A stretch of 64,000 nt of DNA from Erysipelotrichaceae bacterium. Lineage in GTDB: Bacteria; Bacillota_I; Bacilli_A; Erysipelotrichales; Erysipelotrichaceae. Numbering within the stretch: the first letter of the stretch is position 1; every line of letters starts with the position of its first letter. The notes beneath the pieces were generated by a model. That model was not told the origin of the DNA. It worked only from the letters and a program-made list of their open reading frames with translations, and made no database searches. Location of the stretch: NCBI GenBank assembly GCA_031272515.1, contig JAISTR010000038.1:1-64000 (forward strand), written 5' to 3'. Positions 41,851 through 47,837 of the stretch are shown in pieces. Made by a program: the position numbers and the translations under genes.

Positions 41851-41892
41851 TTCATTAAAGGTAAATTAAAAGAAGCTTGGGTATCGTATACT
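41851..41892 (+). promoter_or_regulatory. Direct-repeat operator and promoter for the two-component genes
   Basis: ATTAAAG (41854-41860) and ATTAAAA (41865-41871) are 11 bases apart, the spacing of OmpR/PhoB-type sites. TATACT lies at 41887-41892; a weaker TATCGT at 41882-41887 would match the geometry of the two related promoters at 43902 and 44175. Confidence 0.65.
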
Positions 41893-41911
41893 TGTAATAA
41901 GAAAAACAGTT

Positions 41912-42598
41912 ATGAAGATACTCTATGTGGAAGATGAAAAATATATGGCCAAAGCCTTGGCCCAGGTGCTCAAGAAACACAACTACAGCGTGGATCTGGC
42001 TTTTGATGGTGAAAGCGGACTGGATTTGGCTTTGAGCGGTTTATATGACATTGTGGTGCTGGACATCATGCTGCCAAAGCGCGACGGGATTTCCATCCTG
42101 GAAGAGATGCGTGGCCAGAAACTTGAAACACCGGTGATTTTGTTGAGTGCGAAAAGCGAATTGGAGGACAAGGTCAAGGGCCTGGACAGCGGTGCGGATG
42201 ACTATTTGCCCAAGCCCTTTGCCAGTGAGGAACTCTTGGCCCGTTTACGGGCCTTGGGCAGGCGCAAGTCGCTGGTGGTCAGTCAGGATGTCCTGGAGTT
42301 CGGGGACATCGAACTCAACTACAATACCCTGGATTTGCGCGGACCGCTGTCGTCCTTTCATCTGACCCTCAAGGAGAGTCAGCTATTGGAGCTCTTGATT
42401 TTGAATCAGGGCAGGGCGATTGCGACCGATACGATTATTGAGAAGCTCTGGGGCTGGGACAGCGATACCGAAGACCGGCATGTTCAGGTGCAGGTCGCCT
42501 TTGTGCGCAAGAAGCTCTCCCTGTGCTCAAAACTCGTTAAGATTGTGACCGTCAGGGGTGTGGGCTACCGCTTAGTAAAGGAAGAGAGCGATGTTTAA
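41912..42598 (+). CDS. OmpR/PhoB-family response regulator
   Basis: A 228-residue regulator. The receiver domain has the acidic pair VEDEKY, the phosphorylated Asp51 in VVLDIMLPKRDG, Ser/Thr in LLSAKS and Lys in YLPKPFASEELLARL. The winged-helix DNA-binding domain (from about 130) ends in the usual ED-RHVQVQVAFVRKKL and TVRGVGYRLV. This class binds tandem direct repeats 11 bases apart, exactly what is seen before this gene, the candidate RNA and the VTC operon. The ATG has only a weak ribosome binding site, and its end overlaps the kinase gene by eight bases. Confidence 0.93.
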   Translation: MKILYVEDEKYMAKALAQVLKKHNYSVDLAFDGESGLDLALSGLYDIVVLDIMLPKRDGISILEEMRGQKLETPVILLSAKSELEDKVKGLDSGADDYLPKPFASEELLARLRALGRRKSLVVSQDVLEFGDIELNYNTLDLRGPLSSFHLTLKESQLLELLILNQGRAIATDTIIEKLWGWDSDTEDRHVQVQVAFVRKKLSLCSKLVKIVTVRGVGYRLVKEESDV

Positions 42599-43886
42599 GA
42601 AACTGCGCAACAGCATGATGCTGTTTAATCTGTTGACGGTGTCAATGGTGCTTTTAGCGGGCTTTACTGCCATCTACCTGGTCACCTATTCCAACATCGA
42701 ACGGGAAAACAGCCAGCGTTTGAATTCGGTTTCCTCGATGTTTTTTACCCCCAACCGCCCGGACATCATCATCGTGTCACCCAATAATGAAAACGGGAAT
42801 ATCGAGTTTTCCCAGGAGACCGAGTATCTGTCTTTGGACTATGGCATCTCCTTTGTGCTGTTTGTCAAGGACGGACAGCTGATGAGTGTCAACAGCCAAT
42901 TGGATTTGAGTGAAGAAGTGTACCGGGAAGCCTATGCGCAGGTCGGGGATTCGCAAAGTGGGAAGATCGTATTGGAGGGACGGACTTGGCAGTATGAAAT
43001 CAGCCGCAATCAAAGCGGGATGCCGGGTATTATGCAGCAGGAAAACTATACCCGCATCGTCTTTCTGGATATCACCAATTCCACCAAGGTTTTGACAACC
43101 CTGGCCCTCACATTGATTCTGGTAGGCTTGGTTGTGCTGGCGGCGGTGTTCTTTATCTCCTACCGCTTTGCGGTACGCGCAGTGGCGCCGATTGAGGAGA
43201 ACTTCAACCGCCAGAAGCAGTTTGTCGCGGACGCTTCCCATGAGCTGCGTACTCCCCTGGCCATTATCGGCGCCAACATCGATGCCATCACCGCCAGTGC
43301 CAAAGCCAAGGTAGAGAGCCAATCCGAATGGTTTGGCTATATCAGGGCAGAGCTCTTGCGGACCGGCAAGCTGGTGGATGACCTTTTGTATCTGGCTAAA
43401 TCGGAAATCGTCAATCCCCAAAACCGGCAGCCCTTTAATATAAGCACAGCTTGTGAAACAGCTTGTGCATCCATGGAGGCGGTGTTCTATGAAAACCAGA
43501 AGATACTGGTGACAGAAATCAGTTCCGATATCATCGTTGTGGGTGAAAGCGACAAGCTGCAAAGCGTGATCTATATTCTTTTGGACAATGCCGGCAAGTA
43601 TACCCCAAAGAAGGGTACGATCACGGTATCCTTGCAAAGCGAAGGGGACAAGGCAGTACTGCGTGTGAGCAATACCGGCGAGGGGATTGCGAGCGATGAC
43701 CTCAAGAAAATTTTTGAGCGCTTCTACCGCAGTGACAAATCCCGCTCCAGTGAGAGCGGCGGCTTTGGCCTGGGCTTATCGATTGCCAAAACGATTGTGG
43801 AGAGTCAGGGCGGCAGTATTGGTGCAAATAGCGAGAATGGCTTGACTGTCTTTACAGTGAAGCTGAAACAAAAAAAGAATAATTGA
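42591..43886 (+). CDS. Sensor histidine kinase
   Basis: A 431-residue membrane kinase. Helix 1 (about residues 11-30) and helix 2 (about 168-190) enclose an extracellular sensing domain of some 130 residues. The phospho-accepting His (about 216) is in FVADASHELRTPLAII; N-box DNAGKYTPKKG, G1 VSNTGEGI, F-box KKIFERFYRSDKSR and G2 GGFGLGLSIAK are all present. It pairs with the response regulator encoded before it. The signal is unknown; the regulated genes suggest a cell-surface cue. Confidence 0.93.
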   Translation: MFKKLRNSMMLFNLLTVSMVLLAGFTAIYLVTYSNIERENSQRLNSVSSMFFTPNRPDIIIVSPNNENGNIEFSQETEYLSLDYGISFVLFVKDGQLMSVNSQLDLSEEVYREAYAQVGDSQSGKIVLEGRTWQYEISRNQSGMPGIMQQENYTRIVFLDITNSTKVLTTLALTLILVGLVVLAAVFFISYRFAVRAVAPIEENFNRQKQFVADASHELRTPLAIIGANIDAITASAKAKVESQSEWFGYIRAELLRTGKLVDDLLYLAKSEIVNPQNRQPFNISTACETACASMEAVFYENQKILVTEISSDIIVVGESDKLQSVIYILLDNAGKYTPKKGTITVSLQSEGDKAVLRVSNTGEGIASDDLKKIFERFYRSDKSRSSESGGFGLGLSIAKTIVESQGGSIGANSENGLTVFTVKLKQKKNN

Positions 43887-43901
43887 AAAAAATTTTGATT
43901 C

Positions 43902-43935
43902 ATTAAAGGACTATTAAAGCTATGGCTTCTATACT
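43902..43935 (+). promoter_or_regulatory. Direct-repeat operator and promoter of the candidate small RNA
   Basis: ATTAAAG (43902-43908) and ATTAAAG (43913-43919), 11 bases apart, then after 10 bases TATACT (43930-43935). Identical geometry to the VTC operon promoter. Confidence 0.7.
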
Positions 43936-43941
43936 GAGCTT

Positions 43942-44126
43942 GTAAGGTAATAAAGGAGGTCGATAGCGAAAACAAAACCACCCCGCCATACTTGTCTCAC
44001 CACATTGGTCAGAGTGTAGAGAGGGAAGCGTAGAGTCCAAGCAGTTTCTGGCCAACCTACGGAAGAATTCCGAAATCTCCTTTCCTAATATCTTTAAATA
44101 AAAACCGCTCTAGCCAGGCGGTTTTT
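43942..44126 (+). ncRNA. Candidate structured small RNA under the two-component system
   Basis: A dedicated promoter and an intrinsic terminator define a transcript of about 185 bases without a convincing ORF. AAAGGAG (43952-43958), which looks like a ribosome binding site, can pair with CTCCTTT (44077-44083) near the 3' end; inside, TTGGTCAG (44005-44012) pairs with CTGGCCAA (44048-44055), and GGAA/TTCC forms a small hairpin at 44061-44071. No ATG follows the AAAGGAGG; an ATA at the normal distance would open 18 codons. It may be a regulatory RNA, or the relic of a small gene that lost its start codon. Confidence 0.5.
44101..44126 (+). terminator. Intrinsic terminator of the candidate small RNA
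   Basis: AAAACCGC (44101-44108) and GCGGTTTT (44118-44125) around a 9-base loop, with a further T. Confidence 0.75.
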
Positions 44127-44174
44127 ACCTGTATCATGGACAAGCTTATTTCCTTTTTCAAACTTTTTTCTTTC

Positions 44175-44208
44175 ATTAAAGGTTTTTTAAAGTAGGCCTC
44201 GCTATACT
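44175..44208 (+). promoter_or_regulatory. Direct-repeat operator and promoter of the VTC-DUF4956-CotH operon
   Basis: ATTAAAG (44175-44181) and TTTAAAG (44186-44192), 11 bases apart, 10 bases before TATACT (44203-44208). Confidence 0.7.
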
Positions 44209-44232: not shown

Positions 44233-44907
44233 ATGCAGGCAAGACATGAATTCAAGCACAGCCTGAACTATGGGGACTATGTGATCCTGCGCGACCGCTT
44301 GCGCAAAGTGATGCGCCATGATGAACATGCGGATGAAAGCGGGGAGTACCGGGTCAGAAGCCTATACTTCGATACCCTGGGTGATAAGGCACTCCGGGAA
44401 AAAATCGATGGTGTGGATGACCGCGAGAAGTTCCGGATCCGCCGCTACCCTGGCGGAAGTGACACCATTGTCCTGGAGAAGAAAGCCAAGAAACGGGGAC
44501 TGTGCTACAAATACAGCACTCCGCTTACAAAAGCGGAAACAAAGAAAATTCTAAGTGGTGATTTAAAGTGGATGATGCACGATTCAAGACAACTGGTGCG
44601 GGAGCTCTATCTCAAGATGAAGGCAGAGCAGCTCAAACCCAAGACGGTGGTCGACTACCTGCGCGAGCCCTTTGTGGCCAGTGCCGGCAATGTCAGAATC
44701 ACCTTTGACCGCAAAATTCAGACCGGTCTTTACAGCACTGACTTCCTCAATGACCAATTGCCCACCCTGGATGCGGGGGAGGAGCTGGTCTTGTTGGAAG
44801 TGAAATACGATCAGTTTATCCCGTCCTATGTATTGGAGGTACTGCAGTTAGGAAACCGGCAGAGCACCTCCTGCAGCAAATACGCACTTTGCCGGATCTA
44901 CGGCTAG
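44233..44907 (+). CDS. VTC-domain (polyphosphate polymerase-like) protein
   Basis: A 224-residue protein with the VTC domain of triphosphate-tunnel enzymes. Basic and acidic tunnel residues are seen in ARHEFKHSLNYGDY, YRVRSLYFDTLGDKALREKIDG, REKFRIRRYP, VLEKKAKKRG and, near the end, RITFDRKIQTGLYSTDF and ELVLLEVKYDQFIPSYV. In fungi this domain makes polyphosphate; the bacterial homologues beside CotH and DUF4956 are not well characterised. AAAGGAGG precedes the ATG. Gene order VTC-DUF4956-CotH is conserved in Firmicutes, and the direct-repeat promoter links it to the adjacent two-component system. Confidence 0.85.
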   Translation: MQARHEFKHSLNYGDYVILRDRLRKVMRHDEHADESGEYRVRSLYFDTLGDKALREKIDGVDDREKFRIRRYPGGSDTIVLEKKAKKRGLCYKYSTPLTKAETKKILSGDLKWMMHDSRQLVRELYLKMKAEQLKPKTVVDYLREPFVASAGNVRITFDRKIQTGLYSTDFLNDQLPTLDAGEELVLLEVKYDQFIPSYVLEVLQLGNRQSTSCSKYALCRIYG

Positions 44908-44926: not shown

Positions 44927-45598
44927 ATGACCTTCGATGACATTTTCAAATCCAGCTTTCTGGAAAACATCACCAGTGTAAACATTCTGGACATGGTGAT
45001 TGCCTTATCCCTGGCATTCTGTCTGGGCGTCTTTATTTTCATGGTATACAAGAAAACCTTTCAGGGTGTTATGTATTCCTCCAGCTTCGGGGTGACCCTG
45101 ATTGCCTTAACCATGATTTCCACCCTGGTAATCTTAGCTGTCACCTCCAATGTGGTGCTCTCGCTGGGCATGGTGGGTGCCTTATCCATCGTCCGTTTCA
45201 GGACCGCAATCAAAGAACCTCTGGACATCGCCTTTCTGTTTTGGGCGATTGCCGTCGGGATTGTTTTGGCTGCCGGGATGATTCCTTTGGCCGTATTTGG
45301 CAGTGTACTGATCGGCATCATCCTGATTGTCTTTGTCAACCAAAAGACCTCTGAGAATCCTTACATTGTGGTCATTCATTGCACTGACAGCGACAGCGAA
45401 AACCAGGCGGTCACAGCCCTGAAGAGCTTTGTGAAAAAGAGTGTGGTGAAATCCAAGACGGTCACAGCCGATTCGATTGAGCTGCATTATGAAGTCCGCT
45501 TGAAATCGGATGACACCTCATTTGTCAACACTTTGCATAACATCGCCGGCATCCGTGATGTCGTCCTGGTAAGTTATAACGGCGATTATCTGGGTTAA
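44927..45598 (+). CDS. DUF4956 membrane protein
   Basis: A 223-residue membrane protein with four or five helices in its first 140 residues and a soluble C-terminus. The signature MVGALSIVRFRTAIKEPLD between helices is diagnostic of DUF4956. The C-terminal part (NPYIVVIHCTDSDSENQAVTALKSFV to the end) resembles a small ferredoxin-like domain. Its role is unknown; constant partnership with VTC and CotH proteins suggests a shared membrane-linked phosphorylation or polyphosphate function. GGAG precedes the ATG. The next gene starts two bases after its stop codon. Confidence 0.85.
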   Translation: MTFDDIFKSSFLENITSVNILDMVIALSLAFCLGVFIFMVYKKTFQGVMYSSSFGVTLIALTMISTLVILAVTSNVVLSLGMVGALSIVRFRTAIKEPLDIAFLFWAIAVGIVLAAGMIPLAVFGSVLIGIILIVFVNQKTSENPYIVVIHCTDSDSENQAVTALKSFVKKSVVKSKTVTADSIELHYEVRLKSDDTSFVNTLHNIAGIRDVVLVSYNGDYLG

Positions 45599-45600
45599 CC

Positions 45601-47703
45601 ATGATTAAGCATAAATACACCAACCTGGTGGGAATTGTGGTGGTGGTGATGATGCTGGTGATTACCGCAGCCTTTATCTACAGTCCCAACTGGGGTGTGG
45701 TGAGCGAAGCGAAAGAAGCGGAATATGTGCGAACCCTGTTTGATACCAGCCAGGTCCATACCATCGACATCCAGGTCGATAAAGAAGACTGGCAGGCGAT
45801 GCTGGACAATGCTTCAGCGGAGGAGTATATCATGGCGACGGTCGTCATTGATGGCGACACGGTAAGCGGTGTGGGGATCAGACCCAAGGGCAATTCCTCG
45901 CTTTCCCAAATCGCCAGCTCCGACTCCGACCGCTACAGCTTCAAGGTCGAGTTTGACCACTATTCCAGCAAGATCACCTACAAAGGCCTGGATAAGCTGG
46001 CCCTCAACAACATCTCCCAGGACAACACCTACATGAAGGACTACATCACCTATCAGATGATGAATGCCATGGGTGCTGATGCGCCGCTGTCCTCCTTTAT
46101 CTGGGTGACGGTAAATGGCGAGGATTGGGGCTTGTATCTGGCGGTGGAAGCGATTGAGGAATCCTTTGCGCAAAGGGTCTATGGCAACAATTATGGCGAA
46201 ATCTATAAGCCCGATACCCAGGACATGAATGATGTTGCCAAATTCCAGGTCAATAATGATGGGGAAGAGAACCAGATGGTCTTTGTGGCTGGTGAGAATC
46301 CGGAAAACGGAGAAGGTTTTGAAGGGATTGGTTTGAACGGGGAGTTTGAACGCTTTGTGGATGAAGACGGCAATATCGATATGGAAGCACTGCAGGAAGC
46401 GGCCGAAAACGGGGAGTTTGAAGGCTTTGAAATCGATACCCAAGGCGGCGATCGCTTCGGTGGCATGAATGGGATGAGCAGCGGGGTTACCCTGTTGCAA
46501 TACATCGATGATGACCCGGACAGCTACAGCGCCATCTTTGAAAATGCGGTGTTCAAAGTCAGCACGGCGGATGAAAACCGGCTCATCCGTGCCATTCAAC
46601 AATTAAACGAAAACGAGAACATCGAAGCGGTGGTGGATGTGGATGAGGTCATCCGCTACTTCGTGGTCCATAACTTTGTGCTCAATTCCGACAGCTATAC
46701 CGGCAGTATCACCCATAACTACTATCTGGCGGAGAATGACGGCCAGCTCTCGATGATTGCCTGGGATTACAACCTGGCGTTTGGGGGCATGGGCGGCGGC
46801 ATGGGAGGATTTAATAACCAGCAGTCCAGTTCTTCCCCGGACTCAGCCACCACCTATATCAACTATCCGATTGATGACCCCCTGTTATCCGGGGAGATGA
46901 GTGATCACCCGATGCTGGCATGGATTTTTGAAAACGAGGAATACTTACAGTATTACCATGAGGTTTATGCGGAATACGTGGAATACTTCAACAGCGGGGA
47001 ATTTGCGAAGATGTATGATGAGGCAATTGCCCTGATTTCCCCCTATGTAGAAAAAGACCCGACGGCCTTTGCGACTTATGAAGAGTTTTTGTCTGGCAGC
47101 AGTGCCCTGAAGGAATTCTGCTTAAGAAGAGCAGAGAGCATTGAAAAGCAGTTAAGCGGAGAAATCGGCAGTACCAGTGCAGCCCAAAGTGAAAGCGGAT
47201 ATGCGAACTTTGTGGATGGCTCGGATATTGATATCTCCAGCATGGGTTCCAATTCCATGGGGTTTGGCGGCCGCAATCAACAAAACAACAACTGGAACAA
47301 CAATCAGGGGCCTGTCCCTGAAACTACACAAGAGGAGCAGACCGACCCTGAGACCAGTGAAGCCGAAGGGAGTGATCCAGGTACAATCCCAGGACCCGGG
47401 AATTTCCCCGGGCAAACAACCGATTCGGAAACAGGTGAAGTGCCGGAGATACCAGAAGGGGAGAATGGCCAGGGAAACTTCCCAGAGCAAGGCCAGGGCG
47501 GCTTCCCGGGTCAAGGGCAGGGTCAGGGTAATTTCCCTAATCAAGGACAAGGCAATGGACCGGGCATCAATGTGAGCAATCCGGTTGGTAACGGCTCGAG
47601 TACCAGCTCTTCCACTGTCTCACTCAATGCTTTGGTGTTACTGGGGGCCTGTGTGATTGTGCTGGCAGGCGGGATTCTCTTTGCCCGCAAGCGCCGCTTC
47701 TAG
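45601..47703 (+). CDS. CotH-kinase-family surface protein
   Basis: A 700-residue exported protein with one N-terminal helix (about 10-28), a CotH domain (about 55-520), a long Gly/Gln/Pro/Asn linker and a C-terminal membrane helix followed by ARKRRF, so it is anchored at both ends or signal-cleaved and anchored at the C-terminus. CotH domains are atypical protein kinases; seen are VGIRPKGNSS, YKGLDKLALNN, WGLYLAVEAIEESFA, IYKPD and the likely metal-binding DYNLAFGG (about 388-395). The linker repeats short units such as QGQGNFPNQGQG. The domain also carries an acidic Gly/Glu-rich insert (about 215-300). Last gene of the VTC operon. Confidence 0.87.
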   Translation: MIKHKYTNLVGIVVVVMMLVITAAFIYSPNWGVVSEAKEAEYVRTLFDTSQVHTIDIQVDKEDWQAMLDNASAEEYIMATVVIDGDTVSGVGIRPKGNSSLSQIASSDSDRYSFKVEFDHYSSKITYKGLDKLALNNISQDNTYMKDYITYQMMNAMGADAPLSSFIWVTVNGEDWGLYLAVEAIEESFAQRVYGNNYGEIYKPDTQDMNDVAKFQVNNDGEENQMVFVAGENPENGEGFEGIGLNGEFERFVDEDGNIDMEALQEAAENGEFEGFEIDTQGGDRFGGMNGMSSGVTLLQYIDDDPDSYSAIFENAVFKVSTADENRLIRAIQQLNENENIEAVVDVDEVIRYFVVHNFVLNSDSYTGSITHNYYLAENDGQLSMIAWDYNLAFGGMGGGMGGFNNQQSSSSPDSATTYINYPIDDPLLSGEMSDHPMLAWIFENEEYLQYYHEVYAEYVEYFNSGEFAKMYDEAIALISPYVEKDPTAFATYEEFLSGSSALKEFCLRRAESIEKQLSGEIGSTSAAQSESGYANFVDGSDIDISSMGSNSMGFGGRNQQNNNWNNNQGPVPETTQEEQTDPETSEAEGSDPGTIPGPGNFPGQTTDSETGEVPEIPEGENGQGNFPEQGQGGFPGQGQGQGNFPNQGQGNGPGINVSNPVGNGSSTSSSTVSLNALVLLGACVIVLAGGILFARKRRF

Positions 47704-47810: not shown

Positions 47811-47837
47811 AAAACCCCGGAGGAATCCGGGGTTTTT
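47811..47837 (+). terminator. Intrinsic terminator of the VTC-DUF4956-CotH operon
   Basis: AAAACCCCGG and CCGGGGTTTTT around an AGGAAT loop. It is about 110 bases after the CotH stop; the gap holds only a 6-codon ORF (ATGCACAGA...) with a good AAAGGGGG site. Confidence 0.8.

Follow-up and report, generated by a model that had tools for sequence, protein, structure and literature searches.

The response regulator and sensor histidine kinase encoded side by side at 41912-43886 of the window (the whole stretch of DNA analysed, 64,000 nucleotides) very probably control three units through one common direct-repeat box. The predicted targets would be their own operon, the VTC-DUF4956-CotH operon and, from the stretch separating the two, a probable small RNA. 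Shared control by the kinase pair is proposed because the box, with unchanged spacing, occurred upstream of the same genes in distantly related bacteria and at no other place in this genome.

Genes and repeat boxes of the locus

The proteins of the locus and the hairpin that followed them were:

41912-42598, + strand: OmpR/PhoB-family response regulator, REC and winged helix (Pfam PF00072 and PF00486; alignment)
42591-43886, + strand: membrane sensor histidine kinase, HisKA and HATPase_c (Pfam; alignment), overlapping the regulator gene
44233-44907, + strand: VTC-domain (polyphosphate-polymerase-like) protein (PF09359, E 2e-40; conserved basic and acidic residues invariant in alignment)
44927-45598, + strand: DUF4956 membrane protein (PF16316, E 5.6e-12)
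45601-47703, + strand: CotH-type kinase protein (PF08757, E 2.9e-56)
47811-47836, + strand: terminator-like hairpin after the VTC-DUF4956-CotH operon (hairpin listing)

The Pfam domains of the regulator and the adjoining kinase were above the cut-offs, and the phospho-acceptor D51 and K101 of the regulator and the phospho-acceptor H217 of the kinase were intact. The recognition helix of the regulator was HVQVQVAFVRKKL, and the regulator scored far below the cut-off of the NCBIfam PhoB model (161.9 vs 296.2). The structure model of the kinase had a small extracytoplasmic alpha/beta domain, PAS/Cache-like, and a fold search with this sensor domain against the PDB returned weak PAS/Cache-like matches only (best E 2.8e-3). 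The VTC, DUF4956 and CotH domains were above the curated Pfam cut-offs and stood in the conserved order; phmmer found no sequence relatives of the VTC protein in the PDB. VTC-DUF4956 gene pairs, some with CotH, were common in this bacterial family.

The three boxes, with scores in bits from the weight matrix described below, were:

41855-41871, + strand: box 1, TTAAAG-GTAAA-TTAAAA, upstream of the response-regulator gene (pattern and genome uniqueness; 23.3 bits)
43903-43919, + strand: box 2, TTAAAG-GACTA-TTAAAG, 10 bp to TATACT at 43930-43935 (pattern; 31.2 bits)
44176-44192, + strand: box 3, TTAAAG-GTTTT-TTAAAG, 10 bp to TATACT at 44203-44208, promoter of the VTC operon (23.9 bits)

Read directly in the window, the box stretches were CATTAAAGGTAAATTAAAA at 41853, CATTAAAGGACTATTAAAG at 43901 and CATTAAAGGTTTTTTAAAG at 44174. 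The first repeat copy was CATTAAAG at all three sites and the second was degenerate (AATTAAAA, TATTAAAG and TTTTAAAG at boxes 1, 2 and 3); the real common unit is therefore TTAAAR-N5-TTAAAR, with a period of 11. The earlier note had placed direct repeats with an 11-base period upstream of all three units, and this reading bore it out, with TTAAAG-N5-TTAAAR upstream of the response-regulator gene (41855), a non-coding stretch (43903) and VTC-DUF4956-CotH (44176). The sites that it had placed at 41854, 43902 and 44175 were the right ones, but each was one base off.

All three boxes were exactly 10 bp from a TANNNT hexamer. The common 10-base gap to the -10 claimed for the last two boxes was found as described, with TATACT at 10 bp in both; TATACT had also been claimed after the first box, but the 10-bp-spaced hexamer of the regulator promoter was TATCGT. 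Box 1 had two candidate -10 hexamers with a one-base overlap, TATCGT at 41882-41887 (10-bp gap) and TATACT at 41887-41892 (15-bp gap), and TATCGT is the likelier because almost all related promoters had kept the 10-bp gap. As in sites of the OmpR/PhoB family, the half-sites of the boxes were in tandem, spaced by one helical turn (11 bp), and overlapped the -35.

The candidate small RNA

Two predicted features lay between box 2 and box 3:

43942-44126, + strand: non-coding transcript of ~185 nt, with the start set 7 nt past the -10 of box 2
44099-44127, + strand: terminator-like hairpin with a U run (z = -3.4; 0/200 shuffles as stable)

On balance, 43942-44126 would appear to be a discrete transcript; that it is a regulatory RNA is proposed tentatively. 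The unit had the elements of the published definition of a csRNA-like gene (Marx 2010): a regulator box, 10 bp, a -10, a terminator within 250 nt and an intergenic position. The Rfam search gave nothing at the gathering threshold, and the match to csRNA (RF02379) at 44046-44128 had 24.3 bits (E 0.47), below the gathering score of 57 bits. Prediction of RNA targets by duplex energy within the operon gave values without discrimination. As a coding gene, 43942-44126 was rejected on its three-frame translation, which contained no ORF with a start and a ribosome site.

It is quite possible, at somewhat under an even chance, that boxes 1 and 3 are functional, box 2 is a second tandem VTC promoter, and 43942-44126 is no small RNA but a 5' leader or the 3' portion of the kinase transcript, carrying a terminator or attenuator. 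The hairpin sits where the kinase transcript would naturally end and would terminate that transcript too, and the fold of the whole segment was not unusually stable (z -0.58). A DNA search of 60 genomes returned no relatives of the small-RNA stretch, the matches being short, A+T-rich and confined to the end with the box, and the intergenic gap upstream of VTC in the orthologous clusters was unlike it; loci L046 and L048 also had two box-like sites upstream of VTC with no evident separate RNA. Against a tandem promoter, box 2 outscored the other two boxes (31 bits), the terminator-like hairpin parts it from the VTC promoter, which has a box to itself (box 3), and the box 2 unit agrees with the csRNA definition down to its TATAAT-like hexamer.

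Predicted mode of regulation

The genes at 41912-43886 would form a dedicated, self-regulating two-component system, in which the stimulated membrane kinase would phosphorylate the regulator. Two regulator subdomains would then occupy TTAAAG-N5-TTAAAR in head-to-tail order, one turn apart and on the same face of the DNA. As the repeat pair ends 10 bp upstream of the -10, the bound regulator would cover the -35 region of promoters without a -35 consensus and would most likely activate transcription. We infer both binding by the regulator and activation rather than repression.

Repression by blocking RNA polymerase at the -35, with which the overlap of the box and the -35 region would agree, is improbable, as the promoter listing of the window had no TTGACA-like -35 at 16-18 bp in any of the three promoters, a lack commonly seen where promoters depend on an activator. 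In the csRNA promoters of CiaR, this geometry is an activating one (PMC3091779).

Occurrence of the box in the genome

The pattern TTWAAR-N5-TTWAAR-N10-TANNNT had 3 matches in the 2.13-Mb genome, all at this locus (reversed-pattern control 0), and its 3 matches in the window compared with 0 in 100 shuffles. A genome search for the repeat pair, which the earlier note had proposed as a check, thus came out in favour of it; the strict pattern had no match elsewhere in the genome, so that at this stringency the repeats were not equally common upstream of unrelated genes. With the -10 hexamer not required, CATTAAAGGNNNNTTAAAR had 3 exact genome matches, again all at this locus; with two mismatches it had 12, at background level (control 13). 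The narrower pattern TTAAAGN5TTAAAGN10TATAMT matched boxes 2 and 3 exactly and had no match between 0 and 3 mismatches; box 1 alone was at 3 mismatches, level with chance genome matches, and was the weakest box. Promoter patterns with variable gaps, or with gaps other than 10 bp, gave background matches only.

Fifteen promoters from other organisms, and no window sequence, went into the weight matrix, which was scanned over the 64-kb window, the genome-wide statements being IUPAC pattern searches. It ranked the window boxes first (box 2, 31.2 bits; box 3, 23.9; box 1, 23.3; next site, 9.4), with the small-RNA box the best scoring of the three; the top score across 15 random sequences of 64 kb was 17.8 bits. 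At the stringency of the strict pattern, the predicted regulon is this one locus in the 2.13-Mb genome.

Conservation of the kinase pair and the box

The closest regulators were 63-74% identical and came mostly from clostridial MAGs, with Anaerocolumna and one Coriobacteriales MAG. The order RR-HK-VTC-DUF4956-CotH was found in most sufficiently long loci of these regulators (Clostridia, Coriobacteriales), MAG loci being possibly incomplete; in the wider clade, members from Ktedonobacteria and Peptococcaceae had the kinase pair but no nearby VTC. The box with the 10-bp gap was present upstream of both RR and VTC in L046-L051, and was weaker and more degenerate in L053 and L056. Upstream of related RR genes it was present in 9/51 (shuffles 0), a non-random sample since the loci were partly gathered via regulator and kinase; the comparison from the VTC side is fairer.

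The kinase-pair/VTC module was probably acquired horizontally, because the window's own family had 0 regulators above 50% identity in 273 genomes, and clostridial and coriobacterial regulators formed a supported clade with that of the window in the tree. The family of Anaerocolumna had an orthologue in 1/299 sampled genomes, so the module is sparse.

Several loci of this set had features of their own. Upstream of VTC, L048 (7950-8140) had tandem box-like sites, TTCAAG-N5-CTTAAG and TTATAG-N5-TTTAAG, as did L046; they resemble window boxes 2 and 3 but are without an evident RNA gene. In L051 (2330-2860), a long pyrimidine-rich repeat array of CCCTTTTCxCTTTAAC-like units separated the VTC promoter from the kinase gene. 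The orthologous-cluster kinases at L046:2999-4084 and L053:6690-7787 lacked the greater part of the extracytoplasmic sensor domain; they may thus receive their signal in another way or may be unregulated.

VTC loci with and without a linked regulator

When VTC loci were sampled from the VTC side, VTC was followed by DUF4956 in 39/40, usually without an adjacent kinase pair. With linkage defined as a related regulator within 5 kb, the strict box was upstream of VTC in 7/18 linked loci and in 0/40 unlinked loci (Fisher 1e-4). This difference and the orthologous clusters support the proposal, made from the sequence of the window, that an OmpR/PhoB-type regulator links a sensor kinase to the VTC/CotH system. 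A generalised half-site (with the variants TTTCAG and TTCAAT) increased the counts to 13/18 linked vs 4/40 unlinked loci; these counts have less independence than those of the strict box, since the half-site was picked after inspecting the sequences. As judged from these promoters, the phasing is specific to the 11-bp period and the 10-bp gap; with other periods or gaps, the linked count for the generalised half-site fell to 0-2/18. The generalised form was found at 0/133 gene starts of HK, DUF4956 and CotH. The box was retained across gene arrangements, with genes in the same direction in L165 and divergent in L158-L160, L166 and L180, and retention despite changed arrangement argues for selection on regulation, beyond shared descent of the intergenic region alone.

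It is very unlikely that the boxes serve another OmpR-family regulator encoded elsewhere (for phosphate or cell wall, for example), with the kinase pair merely one more target. Many OmpR-family proteins bind repeats with an 11-bp period, and the recognition helix alone leaves specificity unfixed; however, the strict box was upstream of VTC only with an adjacent kinase pair of this kind, it followed that pair through different gene arrangements, and it was absent from the remaining genome, where a global regulator would leave more sites. Accidental A+T-rich look-alikes, for which the mild enrichment of single CATTAAAG in the window would speak (6 found vs 2.4 expected), are a negligible alternative to control by the adjacent pair, being contradicted by the strict-pattern counts and their controls, the matrix scores (31, 24 and 23 bits vs 9.4) and the cross-species tests of linkage, period and gap.

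On the regulator side of L166 (11455-11605) and L180 (5975-6140), TTTCAG-N5-TTTCAG was, by eye, ~21 bp from the -10, one turn further, which would suggest a second activator geometry. Contig C1 of genome G112 contained the same broken VTC gene three times (2346838, 2417844 and 2488850), spaced by exactly 71,006 bases; either the contig has a large tandem repeat here or the spacing is an artefact of assembly.

Comparison with known systems

The site of CiaR is TTTAAG-N5-TTTAAG, 10 bp from the -10, with small RNAs as output, and the streptococcal csRNA genes were predicted by a promoter-terminator rule and then detected by northern blot (PMC3091779). The window system shared with CiaRH the 6-5-6 direct repeat, TTWAAG half-sites, the 10 bp to the -10 and, as predicted, a promoter-terminator small-RNA unit. 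It differed in its half-site (TTAAAG vs TTTAAG), in its predicted target, VTC-DUF4956-CotH, in having three sites in one locus vs ~15 across the genome for CiaR, and in an RNA too dissimilar for the Rfam csRNA. Its recognition helix, HVQVQVAFVRKKL, was identical at 8/13 positions to that of CiaR (VVEVY[VI]SK[VI]RKKL), related but short of assignment to CiaR, and 3/13 positions were identical with OmpR. Boxes 2 and 3 conformed to the CiaR box under the published one-mismatch rule (NTTAAG-N5-TTTAAG, a G at position 6, 10 bp to a TATAAT-like hexamer) and box 1 (TTAAAA) did not. In its predicted mechanism the window system resembles CiaR but is probably not CiaRH, because the helix agreed at just 8/13 positions and the Rfam csRNA cut-off was missed.

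BAS0540 of Bacillus anthracis, a CiaRH homologue, bound TTTAAG-N5-TTTAAG in EMSA tests, its own promoter included, and an efflux membrane-fusion gene was among the EMSA-tested targets (PMC4938410). BAS0540-BAS0541 is thus similar in its OmpR-family regulator, its box, its own promoter as a site and an efflux target, as predicted beside L058; it differs in a regulon of 23 genes predicted genome-wide, and the text of the paper is silent on VTC or polyphosphate (PMC4938410). The same downstream proteins (CotH, polyphosphate polymerase and DUF4956) are encoded by accessory genes, cotH-PPP-DUF4956, alongside Gram-positive pel operons, and the consulted passages describe no control of them (PMC7112168). 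As far as described there, those genes adjoin polysaccharide (pel) genes, whereas no pel was found among the annotated window neighbours.

OmpR-type systems with such a box and small-RNA output are already known from CiaRH, and the box type also from BAS0540. What would be new is VTC-DUF4956-CotH as a predicted target, together with a csRNA-like candidate RNA seen only in this genome. The earlier note had called the control of the VTC-CotH system undescribed, and no description of VTC-DUF4956-CotH control, or of a signal for VTC-DUF4956 pairs, was found in the open-access literature, most subscription journals lying outside it. Nor did the open-access literature yield anything on the link of the kinase pair to VTC-DUF4956-CotH, on the conservation of that link in a coriobacterium as well as across Bacillota, or on VTC operons that have no kinase pair being without the strict box. 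The wider reading, a horizontally mobile, phylum-crossing two-component system for VTC-DUF4956-CotH with a small RNA as built-in second output, is doubtful. If true, it would place the csRNA principle outside streptococci and couple it to a pathway of a CotH kinase and a bacterial VTC (polyphosphate-polymerase-like) protein. The boxes of the window already extend CiaR-type sites well beyond streptococci, and the candidate RNA may do the same for small RNAs of the CiaR type. A dedicated kinase pair and a defined predicted binding site would make VTC-DUF4956 physiology testable, with the promoters to measure specified and Anaerocolumna aminovalerica DSM 1283 as a named strain that has an orthologue.

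Other boxed genes beside related regulators

Beside more distant regulator relatives, the box was also present upstream of an HlyD-type efflux subunit (L058), an arylsulfotransferase (L173), a neighbouring HtrA-type protease (L179, L184) and an N-acetylmuramoyl-L-alanine amidase (L186), with a near-identical protein behind a box in L187. HtrA belongs to the streptococcal CiaRH regulon. The company that related regulators keep with HtrA, amidase and efflux genes, together with HtrA in the CiaRH regulon and an efflux gene among the BAS0540 targets, suggests that this regulator branch may sense cell-envelope stress.

The boxed HtrA-like proteases at L179:1964-1996 and L184:9912-9944 were divergent from the related regulator, a pairing like that of CiaR and HtrA outside streptococci. 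The Amidase_3 genes at L186:6064-6303 and L187:10754-10994 were transcribed divergently from the kinase pair, and both sides of the common intergenic region carried a box.
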